Part shown: in pieces, positions 1 to 54,300 of the stretch | Layout of the letters: every line of letters starts with the position of its first letter | Numbering within the stretch: the stretch's first letter is position 1 | NCBI RefSeq assembly: GCF_018873765.1 | Contig: NC_057916.1 | Location: forward strand, 12,893,501-12,957,500 | DNA: 64,000 bases | DNA from: Telopea speciosissima | Taxonomy: Eukaryota > Streptophyta > Magnoliopsida > Proteales > Proteaceae | Direction: 5' to 3' | Program-made: the position numbers and the translations under genes | Notes under the pieces: model-generated | What the model saw: the letters and a program-made list of their open reading frames with translations, nothing else | Told to the model about the DNA's origin: nothing | Database searches by the model: none

Positions 1-652
1 TGCAGACAATAATGGACCTATAAGAACCCGTTAATTTAATCCAATAAAAAACTGATTCAAATTGGATTAAAAGCGAAACCAACTTTTGGTTTAATGGTTT
101 GGTTTTGATTTGATTTATTATCGGACCAAAATCGGTTCAATCCAATCGAAGCGATTCGAGCCTGTACATCAGTCAAAGTGAATTTCAAGTTGTGGAATGA
201 TCCGATGTATCTACGGTGCAGTCTAGTTCCCTACTGGCTGTTCTCTTCTCGCCAGAGAAGATAGAGAGACACATGAGAGTGCTGGCGTAGACTACACACA
301 TCCGTACAGAAAACTGCTTCCCTGTAATGTAATATGAATGCGTAGCTGGATTTTTAATTTGTTTAATCCCTTTTGGTCACCGCTGAGTGCCGGACCACTC
401 TGAACTCGAAGTGTAGTAAAATTTACTCTTTGTATGTTCAAACTCAATTATCGAATCAAATATGATAATCGTTAAGTTAATGTCATTGTCTTCTATCGTC
501 ACACTAATGTCATGTCCTTCTCTTTGTCTTTTCCGACTTCCTTCCCAATTATGAATTTCGAGTCCACTATAAGAGTTTCCAACTCGGAAGGCTACCACCT
601 ACCAGTTCTGAGTTGAATTTCCCTTAATAGGAACATCTGTGACGACCACCAG
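1..652. other. Upstream region of the truncated HEXO1 copy
   Basis: No gene is recognised. Bases 1-180 are AT-rich and built from repeated asparagine/proline-like words of the kind left by old non-autonomous DNA transposons (runs such as ggttcaatcc and ggtttaatgg). Bases 235-310 share a short motif (agagagacacatg...gtgctgg) with 27210-27270 upstream of the O-methyltransferase gene, so that stretch is a dispersed repeat. The remainder should contain the HEXO1 core promoter and 5' UTR, because the same sequence lies upstream of the intact copy at 48351. No TATA box could be assigned with confidence. Confidence 0.4.
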
Positions 653-1204
653 ATGTCAAACGAACTTCTGAGTTCCGCTCTCATCTCTCTTGCTTTTCTC
701 TGTATTCTCTATGCATCTTTTGGTGTTACAGTTGAAGGGCGGATTCTAGGGCTCAAGTCGAACTCGGAATCAGATGATTCTCTGGTTTATTTATGCCTTC
801 ACAATTCAGCTATGGCAACGCTACCATCTCCGTTGATCCCGGTCTTTCGCTCAAAGTCAGAGGTAATGGCGGAGACTCCTCCATTATCCGAGAGGCGTTT
901 CAGAGGTATAGAGAGATTATATTTAAACACAGTCCCGGAGGGAAAACTGTATATGATCTTAGCAAGATTAGAATCCTTGTAGAGTCGGACAATGAAACGG
1001 TGAGACTTGATTCCCAGGAGATTATCCTGACTTCCCCCCCAAATCCTGCTATCATTTCTAATTCTCACTCACTGTTTGATTATGTTGTACTTATTCGGAT
1101 ATGGTATTGTTTCTGAGCAGCTTCATCTGGGTGTGGACGAGAGCTATTCTCTATATGTAGCCAAACAAGATGGTCTTTCAATCTTTGGTGATGCCACAAT
1201 TGAG
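653..1204 (+). pseudogene. Truncated, frameshifted beta-hexosaminidase 1 5' end (GH20)
   Basis: This is a duplicate of the first two exons of the HEXO1-like gene at 48351. Exon 1 spans 653-999 and is followed by a GTGAGA donor. Exon 2 spans 1121-1204, follows an AG acceptor and is identical to the intact copy. Relative to that copy, seven bases are missing after 795, at the start of the conserved LWPLP motif of plant hexosaminidases. This shifts the frame and destroys the rest of exon 1. No exons 3 onward exist to the right, because the homologous block ends at 5281 and the next gene is the minus-strand kinase. The N-terminal signal peptide (starting MSNELLSSAL) is still open. It is almost certainly non-functional, although it keeps the promoter region and could be transcribed. 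Confidence 0.9.
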
Positions 1205-2499
1205 GTAACTAAGGAGCTTTAGCCTATGTGTTTCCGAGTAAGTAAAAGTACACAACTTCGTAGTAATTATAACATTTGGATATTCTTGTATTTTGGTATT
1301 CTGATAGAATGCTGCTCTTTTTTCTTATGAAAAGTTAACTCATGAAAGTCAATATTTGAAGATTGGCTTGCATCTCTAAACATAAACACGAGAGTTTCAG
1401 ATGATGTGTTGATTGTGAGCATTCTCCGGTGCTTGATAGAAAAAAAACTTTTGTTACCTAGTCTGCCGTCTTTGTATTTTAAGTTCCCCTTCTAAACCCT
1501 GATTAATGTTTCTAGCTATTGTTACTGTCACGAGTCGAAAGTTAGTGTTGGTCTTGTTGGGAGAGACCATTGAGGCTATGAAGGCGTCTATGGAGGCTAT
1601 GGAGTTGGAGAGAGGAATGAAGAGGGAACCTCAACTGCAGACTTTGCGGTGACCTATGATTTATCCATTGTGAGCACTTTTTTAAAAAGAGACATGAGCA
1701 TTTAATCACCTACAAACGTGGGCATTATATCGGCCAAATAGATTTCTTTCTAACACGAAGGTTAGACAGATTGTTTTGTAAGGACTGTAAGTTTATATCT
1801 GGGGAAAGTCTAACCACAACATAGATTGGTGGTCCTGGATATGTGCCTCATTATGCAGAATCGTAAGATAGGGGAGCCTATTTGCCCTAAGATAAGGTGG
1901 TGGAGCTTAAAAGGAGATTCCTTGAATTCATTCATTGATAAAGAGAGACTTTGAAAGCAACACTAATACGATGTGGAACGAGGTGACGGTTTGTATCAAG
2001 ATGGTTGCTAAAGAGGTACTAGGGGAAATCGAAAGATAAACGTCATATCCCTAGGGAGATTTGGTGATGGAATGATGAGGTCCAAGCAACTATTAAGACT
2101 AAGAAAGCTAGTTTTAAGTCATGGCAAAGGACTAAAGAGGTCGAGGATCTAAAAAGGTATAAATTTTGCCAAAAATGAAGCTGAGAAAATTATGGGAAAA
2201 GCAAGGGCGAGGAAATATGAAGATTTTATAACAATTTGAACACAAAGGAAGGGGAAAAAGCTATCTATAAGATAGCTAAAGTAAGAGAAAGAAAGAGTAG
2301 AGATTTCCATCATGCAGATGTACTAAAAGTGAAGATGGTAGATTACTCATAAGGGACGAGGACATTAAAAAGAGATGAAAAAAGTATTTCTACAACCTAC
2401 TAAATGAAGAATCTTCGAGTAATAGTGCCCCAGAAGGATGCGCTACTCATCTAGACACCACATGTTGTAGATATATACACAAAATTAGGGTGTCTGAAG

Positions 2500-3593
2500 T
2501 AGGGGTATCAATCGGTCGATTTCGGTCGGGCTTAATCGGGCACCCCTAATTTGAAACCTAGCACCGTTCCCGATTGTTTATAGAATTGGTCACTGAAAGG
2601 TTAGGCATGGACATGGTGACATTCGGTCGGTCGGTTATCGGGTCATAATCGGTGTGAGGTCAGAGTATCAGATTGGCGAGCTTCAAAAGACACAGAATGC
2701 TGGTAAGGGGTCCCGTATGATTCTACTTGCAGAGATTGATGAGCTTCTCGATTCTATCAGCTTAAAATGAAATACTCCTCTTGTTGTCCTCCTTACTCTA
2801 GATGAAGAGACGATAATGAAGTAGAACAACAACAAAAAATGAAAATAAGAGAGATTAATAGAGAGATGTAGAGGCTTTTGGGTCCGCTGAGGGGGTTTCG
2901 CAGAGGTTTTGATCTCTCAAGTGTGAATGTGTTTTGTGTAGAAGCGGAGCTTTGTGGATGTTCATAGGGAGGTAACGATAGATCCAAACCCCTGTTGTAT
3001 TCAATGAGGGTTGCGAAACCTCTGCTCCTTTCAACAAATCAATTCTTCTTTCCTCGCGTATGATTCGTCTTAGTTGGAATAGGTAGAGAGATAATCCAGA
3101 TCTAAAAGAGAGAGATATAAGAGAGAGAGGAGGTTTCGTCTTAGTTAGAAGTTCTAGATCTAAAAGACAGAAAGGTTATGGGGATATGGGTATTCAAGAC
3201 TGGTTGTGGTGGGGCAATTTAAAGGTAAAAAGTAAAATGAAGTGACGTGGGTGGGAGTGTAGGATGACTATTTTCAGTTATAATATATTATATCACAATC
3301 CCTTATCCTCACTATTACATATTATACATTAGTATTTGAGCCATGACGGTTGAAAGTTTTAATATTTTAATGGATAATGTATTCAGTCATTTCATAAAAA
3401 AAAGATTTCATTCATGCGTTCGTTCATGTCAGTCGGGCGACCGTCGGCCTTCTCTTATGCACTGGGGACAATAGATTATTAATCGGTCGGTTTATGAGCC
3501 CGGCACATTTAGGAATCGATCGTGTCGGTTACTGTTTTTCATCGATCGGTATTGGTCGGGCCTACCGGTGCGGGCCAGCTATTGACACCCCTA
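2500..3593. mobile_element. Non-autonomous hAT-like transposon inside the LINE (left copy)
   Basis: The element starts TAGGGGTATCAATCGG and ends with the inverse of TAGGGGTGTCAATAG. It is flanked on both sides by the same 8 bases, gtctgaag (2492-2499 and 3594-3601). An 8 bp target duplication with an AGGGGTGTCAA-type terminus is the hallmark of the hAT superfamily. The 1.1 kb interior encodes no transposase. It does hold a 36-codon open stretch at 2660-2767 with protein-like composition, and purine-rich GAGA runs near 3110-3135. The subterminal regions are rich in the word cggtcgg. The right copy is at 50222-51324. Confidence 0.85.
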
Positions 3594-4819
3594 GTCTGAA
3601 GTAAAAGAAGCTTTAAGAAAGATGAAAATAGTCAAGGTACCAAGCCCAGACAGAGTTCCAATAAAAGTGTCGAAGAACTTAGGTATCTATGGTTTATCTT
3701 GGCTAACCAAGCTATTTAACACGATTACGAACACAAAGAGAAAGCCAGATAAATAGAGAAGCATTGTGGTGCCGAATTTACAAAAATTAATGTGATATTC
3801 AAAGCTGCAATAACCATAGAGGCATAAAACTAATGTCATACAATGAAGCTATGTGAGAGAGTTATTGAAAGTTTGAAACCCACATGAGAAAGGAAACTAC
3901 TGTTTTGGAGAACTAATTTAGCTTTATGCCAAGAAGATCCACGATGGAAGCTATTTTCTTACTTAGGAGACTCATGGAAAGATATGGAGAAGGCTAGAAA
4001 GATATCCATATGGTCTTTATTGTCCTAGAAAAAACCTACGACAGAGTCCCTAGTGAGTTAATCTGACATATACTAGAGAAGAGAAGATTGTCATGTAAAT
4101 ATGTGGACATAATTAAAGATATGTATTATGGTGTGGTGACTGGTGACTAGCGTAAGAACAATAGGGGCCAAGGTAGTGAGTTGAGTTCCTACTTACAAGT
4201 GAGCTTCATCAAGGATCAACCGATTAACCTTAAACCCATATTTGCTTGCGCTTATCATTGATGATTTGACCATAGACATACAAGATAAGATTCCTTGGTG
4301 TATGCTTTATGTTGATGATATTGTGTTGGTGGATGAAACAGAAACAAGGATTAACGCCAAGTTGGAGGTTATGGAGATCAACCTTGGAATCAAAAGGTCT
4401 TAAGATAAGTAGAACAAAGACGGAGTATACGGTGTGTAACTTTAGCCACACTAGGGTGGTTAAGGAGGTGGTGAATATTGATGAGAGGGAGATTTCTCAA
4501 AGTGATTATTTTATATATCGAGGCTCTGTTGTAAATAAAAAAGGTGATATGGAGGATGATGTTTCCCAAAGAATTAAAATCGGACGGATGAAGCGGAGAG
4601 GTACGTCCGGAGTGTTGTGTGATTGGCGTATTCCTTTAAAGTTTAAAGGAAATTTTTATAGGATTGCCATACGACTGACTCTAATGTATGGTGTGGAATG
4701 TTGGGCAGTTAAGAAGCGTCATATAGACAAACTAAGTGTGGTAGAGATGAGGATGTTGTGATTGATTTGTGGCAAAACTAGGAAAGATAAATTAAGGAAT
4801 GATCATATCAGAGCTGAGT

Positions 4820-4936
4820 TGGGAGTAACTCCAATACATTATAAGCTACAAGAGAGTCTTCGAGGTTGCATGGCCATTGGGAGTAACTCCAATACATTAT
4901 AAGCTACAAGAGAGTCATTCGAGGTTGCATGGCCAT
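4820..4936 (+). repeat. 58-59 bp tandem duplication inside the LINE
   Basis: A unit beginning tgggagtaactccaatac and ending ggccat is present twice in direct succession here. It occurs only once at the corresponding place in the right copy (about 52550-52608). It therefore arose after the large duplication and separates the two copies. Confidence 0.9.
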
Positions 4937-5281
4937 GTTCAACGGAGGTCTTGGGATGCTCCAGTTTGGAGGAGTGATGTGATCAGATTGAAGGAACTAA
5001 AAGAGTCAGGGGCAAGCCTAAAATAACCCTAAGTGAAGTGGTGAGGAAAGACATGCATAGCTTATGTCTCGTATCTTGTATGACTTCGAATACAGCTGTT
5101 TGGAGAGCAAGGATCCATGTAGCCGACCCCATTTAGTAGGGATAAGGCTATGTTATTGTTGTTGTGGCACTAGCAGGATTCTTTTTCTCTCTCTTATTTC
5201 TTCTACTTCTTTCTCTCTTCCCTATTTCTTCTTTCGTTTTTCCGAGCTACTGACTGATCTGCAGAACCAGCAAGTAATCTT

Positions 5282-7135
5282 TCTCTCTTATTTCTAAACT
5301 TTTAGTTTTTAGCAATGTTTTAGCATAATAAGATTTATGGAATTTCTAGATTTGAGAAAAACCCCAGCATTAGAAAGTTGAAAATTGCACCTACCGCCGA
5401 AAATCCAGTTTTTGTTCTTGAACTGGGGGGTTGACTTTTTTTCCTTTTGGAATTTGATTTTTTAACTATTTTTATTGGATTCAAATAGGGGGGTATTTGC
5501 TTATTTATGAATAAAATCTTAAGTAAATGTAATACAAAAACATTTACTTAAATGATATTAGGCATAAATAAGTATCTGTCTTGTCTGTCTTGGTTCCTGG
5601 CATAGATAGGTGTCTGTATACCAAGAATTTCTAGCAAGATCTCGAGATCTAGCACTCATATAAAGGACCTAGATGGGCATTTTCCTATGTCAAACCGAGA
5701 CCTCGGCGAGATATTGACATTTTGAGACTCGTAGGCAGTCTTGTCTCGGGATTTCAAAAAACCGAGAAACTCAGCGATATCTCGCTAGTTCTCGAACTAT
5801 GGTGAGAATCCAACCTACAGTTTATGTTAAGCTGATGTCTGATGAGAGTTTCAACCCCCATCATCCCGAGTGTCATAAAAATACATCAATACAGTTAACA
5901 GTGCATGCATCCTGATGTAGTTAGGCTTTTGGGTTGTTGAGTGTTCATATTTGGGTTATTATGCAATGGGCCTTTTGGGCCTGGGCTGAGATGATGTTAG
6001 TTTTGTTTTTGGGGAAGGATATTAGGTAAGTTGAAAGTTTCTAATTTTCTTCATTAGATAGAATTTAGGTTATAAATTGTACCTGCTAGAATCGATCGAG
6101 AGAATAGAGATTGGTAATGAAATTTGGTTTCGTGGCAGATATGGTCTCTTGTCAAACAGAGTTTAATGGGCAAACCTATCCTACAGTTGATGGACAACCT
6201 AGGAAACAGTTCATGATGAACTGAGTTTCTACCTAAATCTTCTCCTTTATCTTCTTTCAAATCGATTTTAGAATTTCAGTAGGAATCTTGTCAAGTACGT
6301 CAAGCTTATATTTCAGTTTTTATTTTTGATACTTCGTCCGGGCGTAATCTGGATTGAAAGAGGTGGAGCTGAAAACTCTTTCCCGGTTTCTTTCTACCCC
6401 AGTTTTCGGCCATTGTTTACTCTTCATAGAGTGACCCTAGAGTATTAGCCTGAGAAACAGCCTCTGTAGTTTCAATCTTATTTGCAGACCTGCTACAGTG
6501 AATTTTGTTAATTGTAATTATTCAAATCTGGGGCTTATATTTGCAGGTGCAAGAAGCCTAAGGGTTATCAGTATATCCTAAAATCTCATATTAACTAGTT
6601 GAGTATTAAAGGAGAATCATCAATGTTAAACTGAATTCTCAAAAATCTATAAATAAGGATGAAGATGAATAGGAATTTTTTTTAATTTCCATTTAAGAAC
6701 ATTTCTCTGGTAATTCCTTAAAAGCCCTCTGACTCCAAGTTCTTCCTAATTTGCCTCCGGATCTAAGTTTTCAAATTCCAGAATCCAGAAAGGTCCTTAC
6801 CTTTGAAATTCACCCTTTGGTCCAGATTGTGCTTACTTGTCCAGTTGTCCCAAAGGGTCCAGAACCTACCTGAAAACAGATTTACCCTTGTTCTGGGTTA
6901 TTGAGATCTCATCAGTTTAAAGGGGGTCCAAGTGACCTAATTAGGGTTTTGAACCCTAGGTTACATCACATCTACATGGACCACATGTACTGATTACCAA
7001 ATTCATTAGTACATTTTGCACCAAAAACACTTATGGAGATCAGTAAACAAAAAATGTTTCATGCACATCAAATGCACCAGGGGCTAAAGAACACCAAAAG
7101 TGCTTCCTGAAAGCAAAAATGAGACATAAACAGAC
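5282..7135. other. Gene-free stretch between duplication breakpoint and kinase; holds dispersed repeats
   Basis: 5290-5590 matches, in inverted orientation, the two arms of a repeat at 60165-60242 and 61490-61710. The copy here lacks the LTR-like element that splits the other one. 5690-5810 contains a degenerate inverted motif around gagatattgac and gatatctcgc, resembling a MITE-like family also seen at 57379-57640 and 59885-60130. Around 5915-6560 the sequence looks LTR-like (starts near TGATGTAGTTAGGC), but no protein coding was recognised. No C-terminal kinase exon could be found on the minus strand. If intron 11 of the kinase were retained, the frame would run 31 codons and stop at 7040-7042. 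Confidence 0.5.
5290..5590 (-). repeat. Dispersed repeat, uninterrupted copy
   Basis: The stretch from tttttagcaatgttttagc to ggcataaataagtatctgtc matches the reverse complement of 61710-61490 joined to 60242-60165. The join point here, near 5515 (cttaag followed by an attttattc-type flank), represents the empty site. The comparison defines the insertion of the LTR-like element at 60243-61490. Confidence 0.8.
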
Positions 7136-9371
7136 CTGTAACCGAGGCAATTTCCAAACAGCCCTCGTGCTTTCCCTTGAAGCTGCACCTTCAGGCCAAT
7201 CTAGTTGTGCACCCCTCCTGAAGTATTTCTCAGCACGGCGGCTGCAATAAAGTTTCAGAAAATAACATATCCGAAGGAATCAAAGTTGCAAAGAACTTAT
7301 AAAAAGCAAGAACACAAAAAATAGAGATTCTTACTCTGCTCTAATCATCATATGGTGTGGCATAGGGCCTAAAACCCTCTCCATCATGGCAAGATGTTCC
7401 AAGTTTTCATGGGTTTGGAAAAGAGCATCACCCTAAATATCGAGCAAAAAAAAAGTCAGCATTAGATACTCATGAAGATAACAATTAAATGACCAGAATG
7501 CATTACATGACATGCCACGCCACGTGGAATAATGTTCCAGAATGACCGGGAACTTGACTGTTAATGCATATGAATACAAGTTCCCCAGATTTTTGCATTA
7601 ACAGCAGAATGGCAGAATAAACAAAATTTATTCCACATAACTAGCTAACTCTTTAAATCAAGAAAGATACATTATGTTATGGTTAAAAAAGCATAATCAG
7701 TTCAACTGAATTTACCGAGCAAAGTTCAACAAGTATACAACCCACACTCCATAAATCACAAGGATAATTCCATCCAAGCCCTGGTGAAGATAATTAAAAA
7801 AAAACAATGTTATGTCACATTCACACTAATGACGAGTTAGAAAAATCCCAGAAAATTTTCAAACTAGATAGAAATATATTACCCAAGATAACCTCTGGCG
7901 CGCGGTAATGCCGTGTTGACACCACATAACTGTGATCTTGATGTTCGAATGTTGTACTCCCAAAATCAATCAGTTTAATGGCACTAGACTTAGGCAGGCT
8001 CTTGAAATAAGAACCAAACCTAGCTGACCGTGACAGAAACTTAATTGCAACCCAGAAAGAAACAAAAAAAAATGTCACAAACAAGAAACTTACCGAACCA
8101 TTGACCCTAGTTAACACACACACACAGAAAAATGTGCAACATGCAGACACACAAATAAAAACATAGATCAGAAAAATCAAGAGGGAAAATTGTCTAATGA
8201 GCCAATACCTTATAATCAGGCACCTTGACATACTCTGATGAAACAAGAAGGATATTTGCTGGCTTCAGATCCGTGTGAATTAGTCTCATATCATGCATAA
8301 CTGCAAGAATAAAAAGTGGCAGGAATAAGCAAACCAAGAAGAGGGAAAATTTTATTCAGTCCACTGCCATGCTTATCAATAGCTACTTCCAATGTAACAT
8401 GGCAACTTATATGGAAAAAATAAGTAGCAGCCTTGACTCCTGAGTCTCAGATTATCATCAGAAAGAACTCAAGCACCAAATAAAACAAGATTGAAAAGAA
8501 AGGTGCAAGTATTTGTCCACACACAAGCTACAGACTCCAAAAGTTGTCTTCCAAACTCCCGAACGAGATCAATGGGAAAAGAACGGTAGCTGTTTTTGCG
8601 GAGAAAATCGTATAAGCTTGGTCCAAGCTTCTCAAAAACGTGTTAAAACATTTAAATCCATCCACAAGTTTTAACTCATAAATTGTCAGGCACCAAGGGA
8701 AATGCATCAGCCTCCCAAATTAACCAAAAGCACTAACAAATACTTACAATACAAATATGATTACGATAGTCAAACCAATTCCATATTTGCACACAACTGC
8801 AAAAAATAAAACCACTTATACCAAATTCACCTTGAACTGCTGCAGCTAGAAAAGGTAGAATACAAGTCCTACCGAGTGCCGCCGACATCATGTTTGGCAA
8901 GCTTCTGCAGAACATCGATTTCAATCATAGCAGCCTCACGATACTTGTGAATAGAACGCACAATTTTAATTGCCACCAGTTCTTTAGTTTCATTATCCAA
9001 ACATTCCAAGACTTGCCCAAATGTCCCTGCAGTGATTGCATCACAGAGAGATGAGAAATAAATGGATTGATCCCAGAGCATGGGTAAGACATCTAAATCC
9101 AATTCAAAATCTCTTGTTGTTGAAAGTCATGCAAATGCATAAATTAGTTTTGACAGGAAAAAAAAAAAATTCCAAAAGATGATGAATAAATCATATGTTA
9201 TGAGAATGAAAAACAAATTGAACTTACCAAAAAAAAAAAAAAACCATTACCTTCGCCCATTTTGCTGAGAATTCGGTCTGCATATAACAACAACCAGATA
9301 TAAGAACAAAAACTTGTAAAGAACGGAAGGGGCATGTGTGGGGGAGAGACAGAGTGAATAAAGTGTGTGTG

Positions 9372-9403
<32 letters not shown>

Positions 9404-10895
9404 CAAGAAAAGAGTAGGAGGCATATGGAGATCAACCAGTGAACCAGTCATAAAAGGAAAGCAACTCTAGTTCCCGAATGAAAGTCAGGATGAGACAAGA
9501 AAAATTCAGATCCATCTGAATACATGAGAACAGTCACAAAGTAGTGAAAGTACCAACTACCCAACAACTAGTGTAAAAAAAGCAGAAAAAAATCTTCAAT
9601 AGTAAAATATGGAAATACACTAAAAAGGCCTAATTGACAATGTAGACAAACTATCATCAGGAACCTACCTATCACTTTGAGAACAACAGAATTATCCTTT
9701 CCCCTATGCTATTTATCAAAATAAAACATTAAAAAAATAAATAAAAGATCTCACGGATGCAAGTGTTATGTAGTGCCCCCCCCCCCCCCAGAAGGTGGAG
9801 AGTTTAACAGAGTATAATTACATCGAGGAATTAAATTTTCTCCAATAGCAAAGACATAATGGCTGTCTTTATCATCATTTCGCCATGGAGGTGATCCATT
9901 GTGAGGCAATTCCTTGTAATACAAAGAATATGCATAGTTGGAGACTCCTACACTCGCATACTCTTGCCCACAGTGGATTGCTGGAATGACCTGCAGATAA
10001 AGGAACTTTGTTTTAATAATAGGAGTTAATTAACCAAACCACCACAATGTTTTTGTCCGACAAGAACTTCACGTAACCATGCAACCGAAACCGCAAATGA
10101 GAACAAACACCCTCGAAGGGCATAAGAGATTACAAAACAAATATCCCCCCCCCCCCCCCAACCGGGCAACAAGAACAATAAAGGGAGAATATTCCAGCAG
10201 ATTATATATTATAGAAGAATAAGAGAACGAAGAGTCTCTACAACAACATCACAAGGTGAAAACCCAGACAAACCCATTGAAGATAACTTCTTAAAAAAAA
10301 AAAAAAGATTTCCCAACAAAATCAGAAAGGGGAAAAAACACAGATAACATGCAGAAAATTCAAGCGAGGGGCATTACACACCCCCAGATCAAAAGAAGCA
10401 CGAAAAAAAGGGTTTTATCACTCTCTTCCCCTTTTATTTTGTTTTTATTTTGTTTTTTGGAGGGGGGGAGAGATTATCGTACGGAGAGGCGACAAATAAA
10501 AAGCAACGAAAAATGTGAAGGACTGGAGATTTTGAGGGTTTTCATAGCAGAAGACGATAAAAATACAAAAGGGGAAGGGAGTACGAGCGGACGAGAGAGA
10601 GAGAGACTGAAGTGAAGATTCAAAACGTAAGAGGGATATCTAGAACAAAACGAATTAAGATACCTGAACTTCGTCTACACAATCATAATAATTCAATCTT
10701 CAACATAATTCAAGAACTGACAATGAAATTCCAACTAGAACGAATGATCAAAAGCAATGTGGATCAAAAGATCGGAGAGTACAATACCTGGGGTGGAGGA
10801 ATAGGAGGGGGCATATCCCATGTTAATCTAGGCCGGTTCCTAGGGCGCTTATCCATGTTTGCTAGAGGAAGCTCCGTAATCCACTGAGTCTCCAT
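7136..10895 (-). CDS. AFC1: AFC1-like LAMMER (CLK) dual-specificity protein kinase, last exon missing
   Basis: LAMMER kinases phosphorylate SR splicing factors in the nucleus. Eleven exons on the minus strand: 10788-10895, 9822-9990, 9251-9277, 8873-9026, 8748-8796, 8525-8639, 8209-8300, 7883-8039, 7716-7780, 7335-7432, 7136-7241. Their phases join into 380 codons. Visible features are [10 protein letters not shown] start and [12 protein letters not shown] nuclear-type tail; glycine loop GEGTFGQV (about 100-107); VAIK lysine 122; catalytic loop HTDLKPAN (216-223); DFG 263-265; substrate-recognition motif [19 protein letters not shown]; and the LAMMER signature EHLAMMERV (324-332). Arabidopsis AFC1 has about 467 residues, so subdomain XI (the end of the kinase domain) is absent. 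The intron between exons 5 and 6 ends in AC instead of AG (8641-8640). AFC1 fits better than AFC2 or AFC3 because of the [20 protein letters not shown] block. It is probably a truncated, decaying copy. Confidence 0.9.
9375..9402. repeat. (GA)n microsatellite in kinase intron 2
   Basis: A run of about 14 GA dinucleotides, preceded by a short GT run, lies in the intron between the second and third kinase exons. It is a likely polymorphic marker. Confidence 0.9.
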
Positions 10896-11204
10896 TGAAC
10901 CCTAATTCGGGATGGTATTGACTTCGCAAAGAGAAGTTGCAGATAACGGAAACAGGTTGCTGTGAAAATAACCCAACCACGACATAGGTACGGGATTCGA
11001 TTTTGAAAAGCTTTGGAAACCCATTTTAAGGCGAGCTGCACCAGTAAAGTGAGCCTAAACCCGGTGGGAGGAACCTCAGCCAATTTCCAGCCGTGTGTGA
11101 GTCGTTTGTGCGCGCGAGCCAAGTGTGGCGTGGAAACCATGTTTCGCTCTTCCATGCCACTTCCACCGTTGCATACTTGCACCCATCCAGATATGACCCG
11201 TCAG
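10896..11204. promoter_or_regulatory. Presumed upstream region of the AFC1-like gene
   Basis: This is the region 5' of the minus-strand kinase start codon (10893-10895), rich in GC compared with its surroundings. It must hold the 5' UTR and core promoter, unless a non-coding first exon lies farther upstream. No TATA box or other element could be identified with confidence. The CACTA transposon begins 645 bases upstream of the start codon, so any distal regulatory sequence has been displaced by 8.9 kb. Confidence 0.35.
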
Positions 11205-11536: not shown

Positions 11537-11559
11537 TAACACTATAAGAAAAAGCATCA

Positions 11560-11960: not shown

Positions 11961-12100
11961 ACCAAAACCCAAACTCTTCCCACTCTTTCCTCCGCGCTCA
12001 AGGCCGATACTCTCTCATATCTCTCTCATTCTCACTCCCGCTAATCGTCCCTTTATTATCAACTCTCAAATCTCTCTCAAATTTCTTTCAATCATTCTCC

Positions 12101-12284: not shown

Positions 12285-12289
12285 ATGTT

Positions 12290-13780: not shown

Positions 13781-13819
<39 letters not shown>

Positions 13820-20446: not shown

Positions 20447-20559
20447 TTTTTCTTGTAGTGTAAAGAAAATTGTAGCTTACACATAAAATGGGAATGAAGA
20501 GATGGGGAAAAGAGGGATGGAAAATGAGATGAGCAATGAAAACTGAAAAATGACAAATG

Positions 20560-42200: not shown

Positions 42201-45200
42201 GCCCCTACAGCCAACCAACATTTCTGTTCTAGCCGCAGGTCTGTCCCTCTTTTATTTATAATTAAAACATAATAAAAGACAGGACAATAATGCCCCTACA
42301 ACCAACCAACATTACAAAGGACTCAAAAACCGATAGAAAAGAAAGAGAAAGACCAAACTGCCCCTAACGCTAATACTTCAACATGCTTATTTGACTGTAT
42401 TGCCTGTGGACCTTAAATTTATGCTCATTAACATGTGGACACATCAGGGTGCAAATTGCCTGTTATACCTTCTCCCTTCTCTATTGATGAGAGTTTCTCT
42501 CCCAGCAAAAGGAAGGGTTCAGAAACCAATATCACCAGTTGACTAGGGCAAAAGCCACGAGTTTGTAGTAGTTGGTCCTGTTGACATCAAAAGCACCATA
42601 AATAAGAAATAAAGAAATTTAAAAGTAGAAAGGTTGAAAACTTGTGTTATTAAGTAATTATTTAGAAGTTAAAATTTGTTCAAATGATTCTGAAGCAGAT
42701 GAAACTTAGAAGTGGGCTTATTTTAGTGAAAATAAGCCTTGGGTTGGGTTATATACATGTTGGGCCTTTGGTCCAATGAGTTTTTATTGTAATGGGCCAC
42801 TTTATTGAGCATAAAATATGGGTAGGAGTAATGAATACAGGATTTACTTTATAAGTAAGTCTAGTTAGAGTTCTATTTCTTTATTGTATTTGTTATAAGT
42901 GTTTTAGTTAGGATGGAATAGGTTTCTAAGAGTCCAGCCTTGTTTCAGGCTCTTTTCTTTATTATTTCAGTTTCTTAGTTTAAGTTATCTTATCAGTTCA
43001 TGATTGGTCCTTGGTTTAGGCTTTTCCTCTTTTGAGTTTGCGCCTTTTATACAAGTTTGTAAGGGTCTACAACCTTGTACACGAATTTAAATAATGGATT
43101 TGGCTTTCAACCTTTTGGTTTTGTGGTGATTCCGAACCCCTTGCTGTGGTGATTCTAAAGTTACGGTACTGGTGGTTGTTTGTTGCAACCTGGGTTCCCA
43201 ATACCTTGCTTTGGGTTGCTATGGGCCCACCAAGATGAAAGTAACTCAAAATTATATGGTCAATGGCAGTTCTGTAAATATTAAAACAATTTAGGACTTT
43301 ATTTGAAGGAATAAAGGGCCTTGGATCAGAACTGTAATTAAATTTTGTGAAAGAATGCTTTTCTGGAATTTTAGACGAAGGTGGAACAAAACAAAACAAA
43401 AAATCAGAAGAGTAGGGGTTATGTGTATTATAACCTGATCCTTTGTAATTAAGAAGATTATCCTTCTTCCTTGGTCTGAAACTGATTCATATAGAAACAG
43501 TGGAGACCCAGGCTTGATTCAGGAGTGAGAACTCATTCGTTTGAAGGCTAATCAATCTGAAACTTGAGGGCAAGGTCGCTAACTTGAAGACTTATTGATC
43601 CCAACTGGTAATCACCCAAATAACAAATAATAAAATAATGTTGAATTGCTGAAACTGAACCTAGCGAAGGTTCGGGAATCAGATCTGAAACTGGGTCGAG
43701 TCTCAGCGCTATGACATTCTTCTGGGGCGGAACTGGGCAGGTTAAGTTTCCATAGGAGTATATTCGACACACGAAAACTCAGGCAGAAAAGAGAAGAGTC
43801 AGCAGAGTTGGATTTAAATTTTTTGGACTGCCAATGCCGCCAGAAACAGAGGATGGCTGCAGATGAAATTCAGCAGGAGGGAGAAAATATACAAAATAAA
43901 AGAAAGAAGAGTTGGGAAGATCAAAATATTATTTAAAGGAAAAAAAACAGTAAATAACAAATGACAAAAATAACCCTCAAACTAGTAAACAAACCCCTAT
44001 AAACCCCTATTGAGCTCGGTAACCGCCTCATGGCTCCAGCCCTGCAGATCAGGTGGTGGTTCCTGATCATGTACTTTGTATTTAGTTTCAATTTAAAAAA
44101 CCCAATATAATCCTATTGTTTTCAAGAGTCCTAGTTTGTTTCTTTCTCTGCAAAATCTTCTATTTTCTGGATCGATCTTTCCATTATGATTTTTTATTTC
44201 AGTTAAGGATTCTGTTTGCTGCTTAATCAGCATATCAGTCTCTTAACTGAATCTGTTATGAAATTACAAATTTCCTGCTGTCAAATTTTGGTTCCCAGTC
44301 AGAAATTTCAGTTTCATATCTTAGGAAGGATTCTGACATATTTTAAAATCTGACTATTGTAATGTTTAGAATTTTGACGGTTTGTTCCCCTGCACCTAAT
44401 AGAATATTTGACCAGTATATTGACCAGGTTGGATCCTTTGATAGTCTGATATTTTTCAATTCTGGTTTGTCTTCATTCCCTTTGATGCTGTCGTAAGCTG
44501 ATCTCCCACTGGATACTCCTATTTTGGGGTCCGCACTGCATTATATTCTGAAGAAAAGGAGCAGCATGGCAACATTTTTAATAGTTGTAATCATAGAAGA
44601 TTCATGGTTGGTCTAGACTCCACACACATTTTTCTAGAGGGAACCATTGGATCAGCCAATAAAAACGATAGTAAATTGAAAGCGAAAGATTCAAAATCTG
44701 TTAGAATCAATGCGAGCATATTTCGTGGCCCTTGTTGTGAGCGAGTGGTTGTATAGGAAACTTTTTATTATCTTTCAATGACTGGTAGGTTTATTCACTG
44801 GGGACTGGAAACCTTCTCACTGGTGGAGACTTGTGTTGTATGGACTTGCAACTCTAAGAGGGAGGAGATTTCATTGTCTTAGATAATCTAAAGCTTTGGA
44901 GTCCACCTTGAATATGTCATTCAACTGGACTTGGACAGCAACTTAAAAGGTAGTGGATTCCTTGGCTGGGAATGAGGTTTCTAGGTTGTTTCCTCTGTAG
45001 GATCTTCCTCCTTTTTGTAGTTATTTCTCTTCTTTGGGGATTGCTCGTGTTAGCCTCTAGCTGTATGTTCCATTCCTTTTTCCCCTTATTTAAATAAATG
45101 CTACATTTTAATTTATCCAAAATAAAAAAGAAGGATTTTATGTTGATCTCAAGTTAATATATGTTTTTTTTTTGCATGTTAATCTGATAGTGTAATTATC

Positions 45201-47004
45201 TATTTCAGGGTGTTCAACGTCAGTTCAGTGCTATAGATGTACTGAAATCTGTGGAGTCCTTCTTCCTTTCTGGTGGTGCATCTTGTAAATTGAATACCTC
45301 CTCATTTGTTGTTGATGTAAGATTTGTCACCATTAATAAATTGAACAGAAGGCTTTCTGATGGATTTCTTATTAGCTAATATGAAACACAATTTCATTTT
45401 CCACAGGTCACTGCATCAAGCGCTTACTGTGACTCTGTCCTGAAAAATGGGGTACTGGACTTTGATGGAGCAATTAACTGCCACTTTATTTGTGAAAGAT
45501 CCAACGGCCCAAATAATTTGCAGCCACCATTGGATGGACTATGTTTCCGTGTCTCAGTAAGTTCCACAACCCCCTGATTTGGTATAATGTCGATACTAGT
45601 GTTACTTCCTAATCTTTAATCTTTTGTGATTGGTAATGTCTTGGGCATTTTGATGACTCCTTCCATCAGGTCTTCCAGCAAATCCCAGGCACGCTTTTAG
45701 TGAGAGGATCATTAAATCGTAGACAAAATCCATCATCAGGTTGTTACCCACTTGTTTCCCTGTTCCTTATGCAATGATCTTGATGTGGTACATTATTACA
45801 AACATGGTGGATATATGGACCGTGTAGAGGGCTAGCCTTGAAAACAAATTCTTCCCTATTATAATTAGGTGGCTATTGCACATCAGTTTCCTTGCATGTG
45901 TCGGTTGATGAAATGCATTTCAACCAGATCATTGGTGGAAACTGTCTTTGCAACAGGGATGGATCCTCTGCTTATGCCTTTCCATACTCATGTTTCACTC
46001 ATGCAATCGAAGGCTAATTAAAGCTTGTCCGATGTATTTATATGCCTATCACTACATATGCCTTTTCATGCCTTCCAAGGGAAGAAGCGAAGCATGAGCT
46101 TAGAAAGATATGAAAAGAGGATCCTATTCCCTTTTGCAATGCGGTTTTTTAGTTTATATGTTAGAAGTCCATTTGGTTGAAGTAATAGTCAAAGTGAATT
46201 AAAACCAGCAGATTTTTTTTAAGATGGGCAAATGTTTCCAGAACATAGCCAAATATCTACCATATGATAGATCGGATAGGGTCTAAATTTTGTTTATGGT
46301 AGACCCCAAGGTCTCCCCATACATGTCAAGTTTCTGCCTGAACTGCATTTTTCAAGTGGCAAAATAAAACTAGGACTACAAGAGGGTGAATGGAAACACA
46401 TGGACAACTCGAGAAATATTAGGATGAATTGCATGCATGGGATGGTATTTGATTGAATTTGATCCTGAAATTTGGTAGGTGGCTATGCAAACGTTGACTT
46501 GTCTATCCACTATGCAACAGTCAAAATTGTCACATCACTTTGCCATGTAGTTAAATTATTTGTTGAGGAGATACTGATCCAATTTGAAGTTGTTGATGTT
46601 TATACCGATCAATCATAAAAGAAAAAAATCTGATTCATTCCGATCAAGCTTCCTTCTTCATAATTTGGAAGTTCTTTTCAGATAACAAGGAAATGATTCA
46701 GTTCAAGAGCCAAAGAAGCATCTTCCTCAACAATTTCTGACCTCTAGTGGACCTTTTAATAGGTTTTGAACCTAGATGAAGTTCAGAACATTTTTTTTTC
46801 CTCTTTTAAGCAAACACCCATAGAAAAGTTCCTTTTTTTCATTTCATTGCATTGCACTATTAAAATTTTATTTTACTTCATTTCATTGTACGCAACTGGG
46901 TCTGGAAGTCATTTTTTATTGTTTTCTTTTTTACAGGAGCATTTCCACTAATATTCCAGTGGCTAGAGGATGTACTCAAGAAGGAGTTCATAGAGAAAAG
47001 ATGA
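33260..47004 (+). CDS. FIO1: FIONA1/METTL16-type U6 snRNA N6-adenosine methyltransferase
   Basis: This nuclear enzyme adds m6A to the U6 snRNA, affecting 5' splice-site choice; FIO1 mutants of Arabidopsis flower early with altered circadian period. Eight exons (33260-33483, 34094-34299, 34538-34988, 35097-35304, 45209-45316, 45407-45556, 45670-45739, 46937-47004) join in frame into 494 residues, close to Arabidopsis FIO1. The start MPSKKRRRLERPT gives a basic tail. Features: NPTIHPRNKY-like block (TIHPRNKYFANAPDF); DGRPKIDWTDFNATRELTR; WWIPDGQLCPTVPNRSNY (75-92); SAM-binding GFDIGTGANCIYP (117-129); and catalytic NPPF at 244-247 in CNPPFFES. A low-complexity acidic insertion sits at about 172-220, as in other plant members. 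The C-terminal half begins at GVQRQFSAID. Intron 4 is 9.9 kb (35305-45208). All splice sites are GT-AG and no defect is seen. Confidence 0.95.
34365..34514 (+). repeat. 75 bp tandem duplication in FIO1 intron 2
   Basis: The unit agcatcttttgcaaagttgc...attacaagggcact occurs at 34365 and 34440. A shorter partial unit precedes it (tgttttgcaaagttgcattg near 34332). The copies are nearly identical. Confidence 0.9.
35527..36345 (+). mobile_element. LTR-like repeat (GATGCAGAT family), copy 1
   Basis: It begins TGATGCAGATAAGTCATC, followed by the family landmarks gttgggcatttgatccca, ccaatttaatgagcct, and cctagtcaatttaggttacc, then a TATA-like tctatataagtttgtaagg and a leader with acgaatttgaatgaac. 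The layout (promoter-like box, then a transcribed leader) is that of an LTR. No internal retroelement domain is adjacent, so it is probably a solo LTR. The 3' end is approximate. Confidence 0.6.
36346..37649. other. FIO1 intron 4, unclassified
   Basis: Non-coding, moderately AT-rich sequence between two LTR-like repeats. No clear repeat partner or open frame in this window was found. It is probably old intron sequence. Confidence 0.4.
37650..38640 (+). mobile_element. Solo-LTR-like element followed by a tRNA primer-binding site
   Basis: It starts at TGTTATATAACTCATG and ends ...catctaca at 38624. Five bases later TGTATCAGAGC (38630-38640) closely resembles the initiator-tRNA-Met primer site TGGTATCAGAGC used by plant LTR retrotransposons. 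A promoter-like stretch (aattatatataaatg near 38206) and a leader with gagagacag repeats fit an LTR of about 975 bases. A short palindrome at 37875-37913 (gttcacatgaacagta / tactgttcacgtgaac) lies inside. No gag or pol sequence follows, so the internal region has been lost. Confidence 0.7.
38641..40689. other. FIO1 intron 4, unclassified
   Basis: No gene or recognisable mobile element. The patch 39950-40160 is GC-richer and open in several frames, but no domain was recognised. The sequence may be remnant internal region of the neighbouring LTR element. Confidence 0.4.
40690..41285 (-). mobile_element. LTR-like repeat (GATGCAGAT family), copy 2, inverted
   Basis: Read on the minus strand from 41285 it gives ttgatgcagattcatcacc, acatgttggacctttgattt, agtccagccatgtttgagtc, ctagtcagtttaggttacc, and tatataaagttgtaaagagg, the same order of landmarks as copies at 35527, 42690 and 60243. 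It is the only copy of the family in this orientation. No internal coding was found. Confidence 0.65.
41286..42689. other. FIO1 intron 4, unclassified
   Basis: Contains a 95-100 base tandem duplication near 42130-42310 (ccgcaggtctgtccctcttc...ccccta, with aattaaaacataataaaa). Otherwise it is unremarkable intron sequence. It could include another diverged LTR, but no boundary can be supported. Confidence 0.45.
42690..43400 (+). mobile_element. LTR-like repeat (GATGCAGAT family), copy 3
   Basis: Begins gcagatgaaacttagaagtg, then atgttgggcctttggtcc, ggccactttattgagc, aggtttctaagagtccagcc, and ttttatacaagtttgtaagg, in the family order. It is more diverged than the others. The 3' boundary is unclear. 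Confidence 0.6.
43401..45208. other. FIO1 intron 4, unclassified
   Basis: No open frame of note. The patch 43500-44090 looks like leader/LTR-derived sequence but lacks a confident partner. Bases 45000-45120 contain a T/C-rich stretch followed by A-rich sequence that may be the end of a small retroposon. The branch-point/acceptor region of exon 5 precedes 45209. Confidence 0.4.
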
Positions 47005-47698
47005 GCGGCATGACATACAACCCAGATGGATTATGGTTTTGTCATCTCCATCTAAGTGCAATTCCAGTATTTTCTTTTTAAGCCTCAGAATTCGATGAGG
47101 CGAAACTTAAAATATACCCATAGTGATGTTGAAACCATAGCTCTTGAAGATCGTAAGGATTAAGACAACTTGTAAAAGGTCAATAGTGATGAATTTAGTT
47201 TTTTCTTCATTGTAGCTTCATCTTCATTGATGGTGATTTGATGCTATGATTGGATTCTAGGAAAAGTGAATGTATCATTAACTCACACCTTCTATTGTTG
47301 AAAGTCTGAAATACCCTTATCCAATCAAACGATCAGATCTACCTAGATGAAGAGATTCTCTCTTCACCATAGATTAAGAGAAATTGTATGCCCTATTAGA
47401 TTAAGTTTTCTTTCACCAATTGTGAGGAAAAAATGTCAACAGTAATTCTTACCTCCTATTCTATGATAATATGAGGTCAAAAATACCTTTCCAGAGTGGA
47501 GTTATGCAACACATTTTATGATTTATAAAAAAGCTGTGTGTGCATATGTAATGTCATTTTAGGAGATTAAAAAAGTGGATCACATTGGCCGATTGGGTTC
47601 GATCCAAATTGGAATTGGCAGATGCTGATCCCGAATAAAAGTTGATAAAAACCATTATTTTTAGTATTTTTTAATATTTATATGAGAAAACGAAACGG
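47005..47698. other. Region between FIO1 3' end and the duplicated block
   Basis: It should include the FIO1 3' UTR and polyadenylation region. No strong poly(A) signal could be singled out. From 47699 the sequence matches the start of the window, so by the tandem model the counterpart of this stretch lies just left of base 1. Confidence 0.5.
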
Positions 47699-48350
47699 TT
47701 GCAGACAATAATGGACCTATAAGAACCCGTTAATTTAATCCAATAAAAAACTGATTCAAATTGGATTAAAAGCGAAACCAACTTTTGGGTTAATGGTTTG
47801 GTTTTGATTTGGTTTATTATCGGACCAAAATTGGTTCAATCCGATCGAAGTGATTCGAGCCTATACATCAGTCAAAGTGAATTTGAAGTTGTGGAATGAT
47901 CCGATGTATCTACAGTGCAGTCTAGTTCCCTACTAGATGTTCTCTTCTCGTCAGAGAGGATAGAGAGACACATGGGAGTGCTGGGTAGAGTACACACTTC
48001 CGTACAGAAAACTGCTTCCTTGTAATGTAATATGAATGCGTAGCTGGATTTTTAATTTGTTTAATCCCTTTTGGTCACCGCTGAGTGCCGGACCACTCTG
48101 AACTCGAAGTGTTGTAAAATTTACTCTTTGTACGTTCAAACTCAATTATCGAATCAAATATGATAATCGTTAAGTTAATGTCATTGTCTTCTGTCGTCAC
48201 ACTAATGTCATGTCCTTCTCTTTGTCTTTTCCGACTTCCTTCCCAATTATGAATTTCGAGTCCACTATAAGAGTTTCTAACTCGGAAGGCTACCACCTAC
48301 CAGTTCTGAGTTGAATTTCCCTTAATTGGAACATCTGTGACGACCACCAG

Positions 48351-51300
48351 ATGTCAAACGAACTTCTGAGTTCCGCTCTCATCTCTCTTGCTTTTCTCTG
48401 TATTCTCTATGCATCTTTTGGTGTTACAGTTGAAGGGCGGATTTTAGGGCTCAAGTCGAACTCGGAATCAGATGATTCTCTTGTTTATTTATGGCCTCTG
48501 CCTTCACAATTCAGCTATGGCAACGCTACCATCTCCGTTGATCCCGGTCTTTCGCTCGAAGTCGGAGGTAATGGCGGAGACTCCTCCATTATCCGAGAGG
48601 CGTTTCAGAGGTATAGAGAGATTATATTTAAACACAGTTCCGGAGGGAAAACTGTATATGATCTTAGCAAGATTAGAATCCTTGTAGAGTCGGACAATGA
48701 AACGGTGAGTCTTGATTCCCAAGAGATTATCCTGACTTCCCCCCTCCCCCCCCAAAAAAAAAAAATCCTGCTGTCATTTCTAATTCTCACTCACTGTTTG
48801 ATTATGTTGTACTTATTCGGATATGGTATTGTTTCTGAGCAGCTTCATCTGGGTGTGGACGAGAGCTATTCTCTATATGTAGCCAAACAAGATGGTCTTT
48901 CAATCTTTGGTGATGCCACAATTGAGGTAACTAAGGAGCTTTAGCCTATGTGTTTCCGAGTAAGTAAAAGTATACAACTTCGTAGTAATTATAACATTTG
49001 GATATTCTTGTATTTTGGTATTCTGATAGAATGCTGTTCTTGTTTCTTATGAAAAGTTAACTCATGAAACTCAATATTTGAAGATTGGTTTGCATCTCTA
49101 AACATAAACACGAGAGTTTCAGATGATGTGTTGATTGTGAGCATTCTCCGGTGCTTGATAGAAAAAAAACTTTTGTTACCTAGTCTGCTGTCTTTGTATT
49201 TTAAGTTTCCCTTCTAAACCCTGATTAATGTTTCTAGCTATTGTTACTGTCACGAGTGGAAAGTTAGTGTTGGTCTTGTTGGGAGAGACCATAGAGGCTA
49301 TGAAGGCGTCTATGGAGGCTATGGAGTTGGAGAGAGGAATGAAGAGGGAACCTCAGCTGTAGACTTTGCGGTGACCTATGATTTATCCATTGTGAGCACT
49401 TTTTTAAAAAGAGACATGAGCATTTAGTCACCTACAAACGTGGGCGTTATATCGGCCAAATAGATTTCTTTCTAACACGAAGGTTAGACAGATTGTTTTG
49501 TAAGGACTGTAAGTTTATATCTGGGGAAAGTCTAACCACAACATAGGTTGGTGGTCCTGGATATGTGGCTCATTATGCAGAATCGTAAGATAGGGGAGCC
49601 TATTTGCCCTAAGATAAGGTGGTGGAGCTTAAAAGGAGATTCCTTGAATTCATTCACTGATAAAGAGAGACTTTGAAAGCAACACTAATATGATGTGGAA
49701 CGAGGTGACGGTTTGTATTAAGAAGGTTGCTAAAGAGGTACTAGGGGAAATCAAAAGATAAACGTCATGTCCCTAGGGAGATTTGGTGATGGAATGATGA
49801 GGTCCAAGCAACTATTAAGACTAAGAAAGCTAGTTTTAAGTCATGGCAAAGGACTAAAGAGATCGAGGATCTAAAAAGGTATAAATTTTGCCAAAAATGA
49901 AGCTAAGAAGATTATGGGAAAAGCAAGGGCGAGGAAATATGAAGATTTTATAACAATTTGAATACAAAGGAAGGGGAAAAAGCTATCTATCAGATAGCTA
50001 AAGTAAGAGAAAGAAAGAGTAGAGATTTCCATCATGCAGATGTATTAAAAGTGAAGATGGTAGATTACTAATAAGGGACGAGGACATTAAATAGAGATGA
50101 AAAAAGTATTTCTACAACCTACTAAATGAAGAATCTTCGAGTAATAGTGCCCCAGAAGGATGCGTTACACATCTAGACACCACATGTTGTAGATATATAC
50201 ACAAAATTAGGGTGTCTGAAGTAGGGGTATCAATCGGTCGGAACCGGTCGGTTTCGGTCTGGCTTAATCGGGCACCCCTAATTTGAAACCTAGCACCGTT
50301 GCCGATTGTTTATAGAATCGGTCACTGAAAGGTTAGGCATGGACATGGTGATATTCGGTCGGTCGGTTATCGGTTCATAATCGGTGTGAGGTCAGAGTAT
50401 CAGATTGGCGAGCTTCAAAAGACACAAAATGCTGGTAAGGGGTCCCGTATGATTCTACTTGCAGAGATTGATGAGCTTCTCGATTCTATCAGCTTAAAAT
50501 GAAATACGCCTCTTGCTGTCCTCCTTACTCTAGATGAAGAGACGATAATGAAGTAGAACAACAAAAAAAAATGAAAATTAGAGAGATTAATAGAGAGATG
50601 TAGAGGCTTGTGGGTCCCCTGAGGGGGTTTCGCAGAGGTTTTGATCTCTCAAGTGTGAATGTGTTTTGTGTAGAAGCGGAGCTCTGTGGATGTACATAGG
50701 GAGGTAACGACAGATACAAATCCCTGTTGTATTCAATGAGGGTTGCGAAACCTCTGCTCCTTTCAACAAATCAATTCTTCTTTCCTCGCGTATGATTCGT
50801 GTTAGTTGGAACAGGTAGAGGGATAATCCAGATCTAAAAGAGAGAGAGATAAGAGAGGGTGGGGGTTTTGTCTTAGTTGGAAGTTCCAGATCTAAAAGAG
50901 AGAGAGGTTATGGGGATATGGGTATTCAAGACTGGTTGCGGTGGGGCAATTTAAAAGTAAAAAGTAAAATGAAGTGACGTGGGTGGGAGTGTAGGACGAC
51001 TATTTTCAGTTATAATATATTATATCACAATCCCTTATCCTCACTATTACATATTATACATTAGTATTTGAGCCATGACGGTTGAAAGTTTTAATATTTT
51101 AATGGATTATGTATTCAGTCATTTCATAAAAAAAGACTTCATTCATGCGTTCGTTCATGTCAGTCAGGCGACCGTCCGCCTTCTCTTATGCATTGGGAAC
51201 GACCGATTATTAATTGGTCGGTTTATGTGCCCGACACATTTAGGAATCGATCGTGTCGGTTACGGTTTTTCATCGGTCGGTACTGGTCGGGCCTACCGGT

Positions 51301-54300
51301 GCGGGCCAGCTATTGACACCCCTAGTCTGAAGTAAAAGAAGCTTTAAGAAAGATGAAAGTAGTCAAGGTACCAAGCCCAGACAGAGTTCCAATAAAAGTG
51401 TCGAAGAGCTTAGGTATCTATGGTTTATCTTGGCTAACAAAGCTATTTAACCCGATTATGAACACAAAGAGAATGCCAGATAAATAGAGAACCATTGTGG
51501 TGCCGAATTTACAAAAATTAATGTGATATTCAAAGCTGCAATAACCATAGAGGCATAAAACTAATGTCATACAATGAAGTTATATGAGAGGGTTATTGAA
51601 AGTTTGAAACTCACATGAGAAAGGAAACTACTATTTTGGAGTACTAATTTAGCTTTATGCCAAGAAGATCCACGATGGAAGCTATTTTCTTACTTAGGAG
51701 ACTCTTGGAAAGATATAGAGGAGGCTAGAAGGATATCCATATGGTCTTTATTGACCTAGAAAAAACCTACGACAGAGTCCCTAGTGAGTTAATCTGACAT
51801 ATACTAGAGAAGAGAAGACTGCCATTTTAATATGTGGACATAATTAAAGATATGTATTATGGTGTGGTGACTGGTGACTAGCGTAAGAACAGTAGGGGCC
51901 AAGGTAGTGAGTTGAGTTCCCACTTACAAGTGGGCTTCATCAAGGATCAACCGATTAACCTTAAACCCATATTTGTTTGCGCTTATCATTGATGATTTGA
52001 CCATAGACATACAAGATACGGTTCCTTGGTGTATAGTTTATGTTGATGATATTGTGTTGGTGGATGAAACAGAAACAAGGATTAACGCCAAGTTGGAGGT
52101 TATGGAGATCAACCTTGGAGTCAAAAGGTCTTAAGATAAGTAGAACAAAGACGGAGTATACGGTGTGTAACTTTAGCCACACTAGGATGGTTAAGGAGGT
52201 GGTGAATATTGATGAGTGGGAGATTTCTCAAAGTGATTATTTTATATATCGAGGCTCTGTTGTAAATAAAAAAGGTGATTTGGAGGATGATGTTTCCCAA
52301 AGAATTAAAATAAGATGGATGAAGCGGAGAGGTACGTCCGGAGTGTTGTGTGATTGGCGAATTCCTTTAAAGTTTAAAGGAAATTTTTATAGGATTGCCA
52401 TACGGCTGACTCTGATGTATGGTGTGGAATGTTGGGCAGTTAAGAAGCGTCATATAGACAAACTAAGTGTGGTAGAGATGAGGATGTTGAGATTGATTTG
52501 TGGCAAAACTAGGAAGGATAAAGTGAGGGATGATCATATCAGAGTTGAGTTGGGAGTAACTCCAATACATTATAAGCTACAAGAGAGTCGTTCGAGGTTG
52601 CATGGCCATGTCCAACGGAGGTCTTGGGATGCTCCAGTTTGGAGGAGTGATGTGATCAGATTGAAGGAACTAAAAGAGTCAGGGGCAGGCCTAAAATAAC
52701 CCTAAGTGAAGTGGTGAGGAAAGACATGCATAGCTTAGGTCTCGTATCTTGTATGACTTCGAATACAGCTGTTTGGAGAGCAATGATCCATGTAGCCGAC
52801 CCCATTTAGTAGGGATAAGGCTATGTTATTGTTGTTGTGGCACTAGCAGGATTCTTTTTCTCTCTCTTATTTCTTCTACTTCTTTCTCTCTTCCCTATTT
52901 CTTCTTTCGTTTTTCCGAGCTACTGACTGATCTGCAGAACCAGCAAGTAATCTTATCAATCACTGGTGTTCCTGCTAGCTAGTAAGTTAACAAATCTGGG
53001 AACTAATCAGTTTTTACTCTTATAAACCAACTTTTTTCCTTTGAATGTGGTAACCTACTATTCTGATTTCCTGTGATCTTCTTATAGTTTGCATCAGATA
53101 CTGATTTCAGATCTGAGATTTATGTTCATCGAACATTCTGTTATCATAATCAGATCTGTCTTCTCTGATATTACTAATGTTACTTCTTGTGCTGGTTGGT
53201 TGATATTCTGATTTCCTGTAATGTTGCAAGTCTGATTCCTGATTCTGTCTTCTAATATGTTCTATTGAATCACCACAATTCAGTGTTGACATTTATCTTC
53301 TGCTGTTAAATTCTGAGACTTATATTTTTGGTCCCTAGTTTCTAAGATAATCACATTTAAACAGTGGGCCTGTCAGCAGCGTATTGGAGATTAAGTTCTG
53401 ATTTTTGGAATTCGGGTTTAAGGACTGCATTATCCTTCTTATATATGGGTCTTGCAGTAAAAAGGGCCTCAATGTTTGTTGCAGATACCAAAACTCTATA
53501 GGGCGGTTGCCGCTTTCAAGCCCGCAAACGGTGCAAACAGAGGTTTGGAACTCTAACCTAGGTTGGGCGCAGTAGCACCCTGCAAAGAAAACGGATGCGC
53601 GTTAGCACTTCTTACGTGACCAAACAAGGGATGAGGCCATTGATTGTCTCCTCAAAGGCAAAATTATTGTTGATTTTGCTTTTATTTGTTGATTAAGCCA
53701 TTTGATTGTCTCTTCAAAGGCATGGTCCTGTCTTACGTTATGTCTTAAAAAGAACATTGGCAGGTGCTTTCAAGTCTCAACACTTTCAACTATCCTATTG
53801 GAATCCAAGGATATGACTGACATCCTTAACTGCACTAATTTAGTTGTTTAGACGAATGCCTCTCGAACTCTTATCTGCTGCTATTCAATGATTCAATGAT
53901 TCATAGTAAATCACTACCTGTTTGATTTTATTTTTTAACTTGATAACATTAATTTATTTTTGAGTTCTGTATCTCCTATGGCACATAGTAGTTTGATCAA
54001 TAGGACATGACATGGCAGAAATGAATTCATAGGTTTTGAATGACTGGTGATGTGAACGCAAGCATTATTAATTTTTTAGGGTAGAAATTTTGATTGAGCT
54101 TCTTCTTGCCTAAATTGTTAGAAGAAATTATTGTTCACTGATCTGTGTTATAAGTGCATGATTTCATTGAGGCATCCATAACCATGCGATTTTTTTTTCT
54201 TTGGGGGGGGGGGGGGGGGAGGGGGATTAGTCCAGGTGGTTTTGCTCTTGAATTAAGTATATCCTTTCTTACTTTTTTGTTGCAGGCAAATACTGTTTAT

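Follow-up and report, generated by a model that had tools for sequence, protein, structure and literature searches.

A probable tandem duplication of about 46-48 kb, with its joint preserved, on chromosome C1 of Telopea speciosissima

Genes and elements of the locus

The stretch of DNA analysed here, called the window, comprises 64,000 nucleotides of the T. speciosissima assembly (C1:12893501-12957500), and the whole-assembly searches covered 822,943,500 bases. It holds two copies of HEXO1, of which the left is truncated (HEXO1-delta), a truncated copy of the kinase gene AFC1 (AFC1-delta), a CACTA-type transposon, a COMT-like gene and an RNA methyltransferase of the FIO1/METTL16 type (Table 1).

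Table 1. Features of the locus and matching blocks of the two units (window positions, unless preceded by C1)
Feature	Position	Strand	Details
Left unit	C1:12852289-12898781		46,493 bases (46.5 kb); right end = window 1-5281
Right unit	5298-52954	+	47,657 bases (47.7 kb)
HEXO1-delta (left)	exon 1 653-999, exon 2 1121-1204	+	with 5′ flank and part of intron 2 (1-5281)
Joint filler	5282-5297	.	16 bases, in neither flank
AFC1-delta (LAMMER/CLK-type kinase)	10895-7136	-	exons 1-11, residues 1-380 of 432 (query P0121)
CACTA-type transposon	11540-20460	.	8,921 bases; ends CACTATAAGAAAAA and TTTTTCTTGTAGTG; TSD TAA
COMT-like gene	27999-30252	+	361 codons, open; 6/361 residues differ from Telopea P0241
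FIO1/METTL16-type RNA methyltransferase	33206-34989	+	three open stretches matching Methyltransf_10 (Pfam); partial model
HEXO1 right copy	48351-59542	+	matches to residues 1-263 of 544; window ends before remainder
RTE-type LINE, interrupted	49271-52838 (left about 1549-5165)	+	HEXO1 intron 2, both copies
Matching block	5298-11198 = C1:12852289-12858204		98%
Matching block	20460-23532 = C1:12858524-12861479		90%
Matching block	23761-25000 = C1:12861473-12862696		91%
Matching block	25004-25731 = C1:12864541-12865270		93%
Matching block	27324-30000 = C1:12873701-12876363		93%
Matching block	30000-32210 = C1:12876363-12878582		95%
Matching block	32208-32896 = C1:12878523-12879233		90%
Matching block	32893-35400 = C1:12879975-12882486		98%
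Matching block	36400-40700 = C1:12883506-12887794		97%
Matching block	44001-47699 = C1:12889826-12893500		96%

Exons 1 and 2 of HEXO1 are present in both copies and the later exons in the right one only, so that the left copy stops within intron 2, as the first-pass annotation had it. In the right copy these two exons are spliced and open, exon 3 lies near 54283 and later exons occupy 58976-59542 (queries Macadamia and Protea HEXO1, P0001 and P0002), while exon 1 of HEXO1-delta has suffered a 7-base deletion near 793 that shifts the frame. Five coding substitutions separate the copies, two silent and three changing the amino acid; of these three, the right copy has retained the residue of Macadamia at two and, as in Macadamia, an acidic one at the third. 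The RTE-type LINE, being found in both copies of intron 2, must be older than the duplication; within it, a 58-base tandem copy of the adjoining bases (4819-4936, + strand) occurs in the left HEXO1 copy only. Two Ty1/copia-like fragments were also seen on the minus strand, one with an RVT_2 match (55332-55658) and one named by eye, with no Pfam match (63085-63369).

The eleven exons of AFC1-delta are all open, and the 3′ splice site of exon 6 (8640-8641, - strand) has been lost, reading AAC-AC where the left copy reads AAC-AG. The last 52 residues found no match in the window with P0121 as query, in agreement with the earlier placing of the start of the right copy inside the last visible intron of the kinase; nor did P0121 reveal, in the whole assembly, any right-unit counterpart of the last exon. 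The intact AFC1 that had been predicted to the left does have its last exon there: C1:12838463-12838642 holds it, about 15.5 kb away from exon 11 and 13.6 kb to the left of the breakpoint. The same search recovered both exon sets on C1, with the next-best last exon on C2 (89%), and the near-identical AFC1 loci are two in an assembly search in which all 9 candidates were scored. A more distant locus, C2:7368015-7376475 (DNA identity 79% over its longest match; protein identity 89% for the last exon), probably represents P0127, the second AFC1-like gene of Telopea.

Nine residues distinguish AFC1-delta from P0121, and at five of them AFC1-delta carries rare residues where 119 listed homologues are conserved: K20N (K in 112, the other 7 being gapped), G79S (G in 114), R158W (R in 117), E222A (E in all 119) and R357Q (R in 110). 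At P29, R94 and R346 it is AFC1-delta, and not P0121, that keeps the commonest residue of these homologues, and position 5 of AFC1-delta is W, as in 27 of them, against R in 67; thus the intact partner, P0121, has changed as well, at three or four positions. P0121 can be taken as the left copy, since the left AFC1 locus agrees with it at all six of the nine differing positions that are covered, in five short stretches. Judged by their sequences, HEXO1-delta and AFC1-delta both look like pseudogenes.

The COMT-like gene and the methyltransferase, for which the METTL16 match came from one of the three FIO1 open stretches, each have a homologous region in the left unit, in the same order, as had been foreseen; that of COMT is in the block from C1:12873701 onward, and P0241 is probably its product. 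Four relatives of the last COMT exon (83-86%) are clustered at C1:38.29-38.46 Mb. The CACTA element belongs to the right unit only, the left having 319 bases between the flanking matches, and its relatives (95%, query 11540-20000) are on C3 and C4. The left unit has extra DNA of its own, about 1.8 kb at C1:12862696-12864541 and up to 6.8 kb within C1:12865270-12873701.

Correspondence and divergence of the two units

The left and right units are direct, collinear and adjacent, with 16 bases between them and 88-98% identity. The single duplication proposed by the first-pass annotation is thereby borne out in that the left flank proved homologous to the right unit in one order and orientation, although its limits need correction. 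When the window was compared with itself by BLAST, 1-4877 matched 47700-52609 (96.1%) and 4877-5281 matched 52550-52954 (98.8%), both directly; the homology claimed for 1-5281 is therefore real and the right-hand coordinates, given as 47699-52953, were one base off. The unit does not begin at 5282, as had been supposed, since homology to the left unit begins at 5298 and the intervening bases are filler, and the length of 47.7 kb suits the right unit, whereas the left is 46.5 kb.

A global alignment of 1-5281 with 47700-52954 paired 5,221 bases, 96.9% of them identical, and showed 103 transitions and 57 transversions (K80 0.031). Plant substitution rates are of the order of 5-15 per 10^9 per year, from which an age of about 1-3 million years follows. 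The final 405 bases before the joint have 5 differences, fewer than expected (p 0.014, 5,000 random placements), and this low divergence may be due to chance.

The matching blocks of Table 1 keep a single order and a single orientation throughout, and together with 47700-52954 they amount to about 32 kb, two thirds of it at 96-98%, a total that takes in neither 35400-36400, where repeats dominated the matches, nor 40700-44000, and that leaves out some smaller gaps. The divergence is uneven: within the stretch 20460-32896, where COMT lies, identity to C1:12858524-12879233 is 88-95%, the lowest value (88%) counting gaps, whereas the other blocks are at 96-98%. Gaps and repeats account for some of this low identity, yet 25004-25731 has a counterpart of nearly equal length (728 versus 730 bases) and still matches at 93%. 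A divergence rising smoothly from the breakpoints was considered and rejected, because the FIO1 block and that at 36-41 kb are back at 97-98%, so that 20460-32896 stands out. Conversion elsewhere, a separate history of the COMT block or a higher mutation rate in silenced repeats could explain it; this unevenness counts against one event without later conversion or differences in rate.

As regards the number of copies, 3 of the 105 matches listed for window 1-5281 in the whole assembly (best 40 of 9,998 candidates) are the two copies themselves, and the other 102 are confined to the LINE stretches 1549-2509 and 3594-5169; among the same 105 there is no third match to 1-1548, and the 5′ end of HEXO1 likewise has two copies among the matches listed for the whole assembly. 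No third unit appeared among the matches listed from elsewhere in the assembly, although absence from such lists is weak evidence, given that they mostly hold the best 40 scored candidates and that two of them lacked the window's own place. Blind sampling of C1, in 20 pieces of 10 kb each and 100 more that were 500 bases long, recovered no copy of the unit, only matches to repeat families.

The joint and its possible origin

The sequence is homologous to the right copy as far as 5281, and to the left unit from 5298 onward. The 16-base filler was sought in the flank of the left breakpoint and in the rest of the window, and was not found; however, 14 of its 16 bases are an exact copy of 5188-5201 (+ strand), 94 bases upstream, the same 14 being present at 52861-52874. 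Of the control 16-mers, 396 of 20,934 (1.9%) were matched just as well no more than 300 bases away, as were 130 of 5,100 pyrimidine-rich ones (2.5%); for 14-mers of the window matched at most 200 bases upstream, the figures are 403 of 63,772 (0.6%) and 18 of 1,732 (1.0%). With chance rates of up to about 2.5%, the templated origin of the filler is only suggestive, and 5188-5201 is a possible template on the grounds of sequence.

The AFC1-side end falls inside a common repeat that, in the left unit, extends 147 bases further left, for which reason the idea that 5298 is a transposon terminus, as in aberrant transposition, was rejected. The abundant repeat at this breakpoint is present twice, in inverted orientation (C1:12851840-12852132 and 12852142 onward), and has at least 37 more relatives at 90-95%; the inverted pair is a possible fragile site. 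The HEXO1-side end lies 116 bases past the 3′ end of the RTE-type LINE, and the proposal that the breakpoint is this 3′ end was likewise discarded, the element stopping short of it at 5165/52838. No repeat common to both ends, in register, was found, and thus repair by end joining, accompanied by a short insertion, is favoured over unequal crossing-over as the origin of the joint.

We consider it highly likely, from the arrangement of the sequences, that one direct head-to-tail tandem duplication of about 46-48 kb took place on C1. One end of the copied segment lies within a repeat in the last intron of AFC1, of about 15.5 kb, the other in intron 2 of HEXO1, and the 16 bases of filler link the two. 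Some of the steps could have been: (i) a double-strand break would have been mended by end joining, in which the sister chromatid was probably the partner, and a short piece, perhaps templated, would have been inserted; (ii) the products would have been an AFC1 with all its exons on the left, a HEXO1 continuing past the break on the right, two COMT and two FIO1 regions and, as by-products, a truncated HEXO1 and, opposite it across the joint, a truncated AFC1; (iii) and finally, the lesions seen in both truncated copies, and the DNA that each unit has and the other lacks, would have been acquired afterwards.

A different explanation is that the assembler joined two haplotypes of one locus end to end. 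Unpurged haplotigs in plant assemblies do create false tandem duplications, with direct near-identical blocks side by side, and a divergence of a few per cent is possible between haplotypes. The locus departs from this pattern in several respects: the frameshift and the splice-site loss sit in the two truncated copies, one unit alone has the 8.9-kb transposon, filler is present at the joint and a K80 of 3.1%, with one block as low as 88% identical (gaps counted), exceeds the genome-wide heterozygosity of 0.76% given for T. speciosissima, citing Chen et al. 2022, in the available text of PMC13080361. This last comparison makes a haplotype artefact unlikely.

Equally improbable, in our estimation, is a wider tandem duplication followed by an end-joining deletion that removed the 3′ half of HEXO1 and the last exon of AFC1 and left the same filler joint. 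It would lead to an identical end state, and for maize p2/p1 a deletion that left filler within a tandem array is described, in the portion available (PMC2686159); nevertheless, it requires two events, and the 3.8 kb left of the breakpoint, where matches to the window are only short or diverged and repeat-like, gave no sign of a wider unit. The common repeat at the AFC1 end and the LINE near the HEXO1 end might suggest unequal crossing-over between repeats, but this is extremely improbable, as the ends share no repeat in register, 16 foreign bases stand at the joint, and the last 405 bases before it are HEXO1 copy at 98.8%, with no switch to another LINE.

To return to the single tandem duplication, HEXO1-delta (+) and AFC1-delta (-) lie tail to tail at the joint, each without its own 3′ end. 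Read-through RNA from either would be antisense to the other, and the two could in principle pair and so bring about silencing in trans of the intact AFC1 and HEXO1 through double-stranded RNA; the duplication would then be a natural silencing locus and not merely two dead copies; what the locus displays of this is the orientation, and we regard such silencing as very unlikely.

Relation to known systems

The kind of duplication is ordinary and already known, and this one is notable for its preserved joint: it is a well-resolved case in a wild plant genome, with both breakpoints and the joint readable to the base, it involves several genes, and the two truncated genes each bear marks of decay of their own. 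As a worked example it could show how a true duplication is told from a haplotype artefact, and it could help in studying the dosage of the COMT and FIO1 genes, although by itself it opens no long-standing question.

Among the closest likenesses is the maize p1/p2 cluster where, in the part of PMC2686159 available, plant genes again stand in tandem and a joint falls within an intron and cuts a gene, together with short filler from nearby sequence (copied from near the break, 1 to 131 bases) and a discussion of gene conversion between copies. However, the p2/p1 filler marks a deletion that gave a chimera of two related genes, whereas the waratah joint puts two unrelated genes tail to tail, between multi-gene units of 46-48 kb. 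The locus also resembles the products of polymerase-theta-mediated end joining, in that the joint is non-homologous and bears a short insertion, maybe templated nearby; the available portions of PMC8654963 and PMC7368036 deal with tandem duplications and templated insertions, in the setting of C. elegans HELQ-1 and BRCA1 deficiency. It differs from those cases in that here the template match is only suggestive, and we assign the joint to no particular enzyme.
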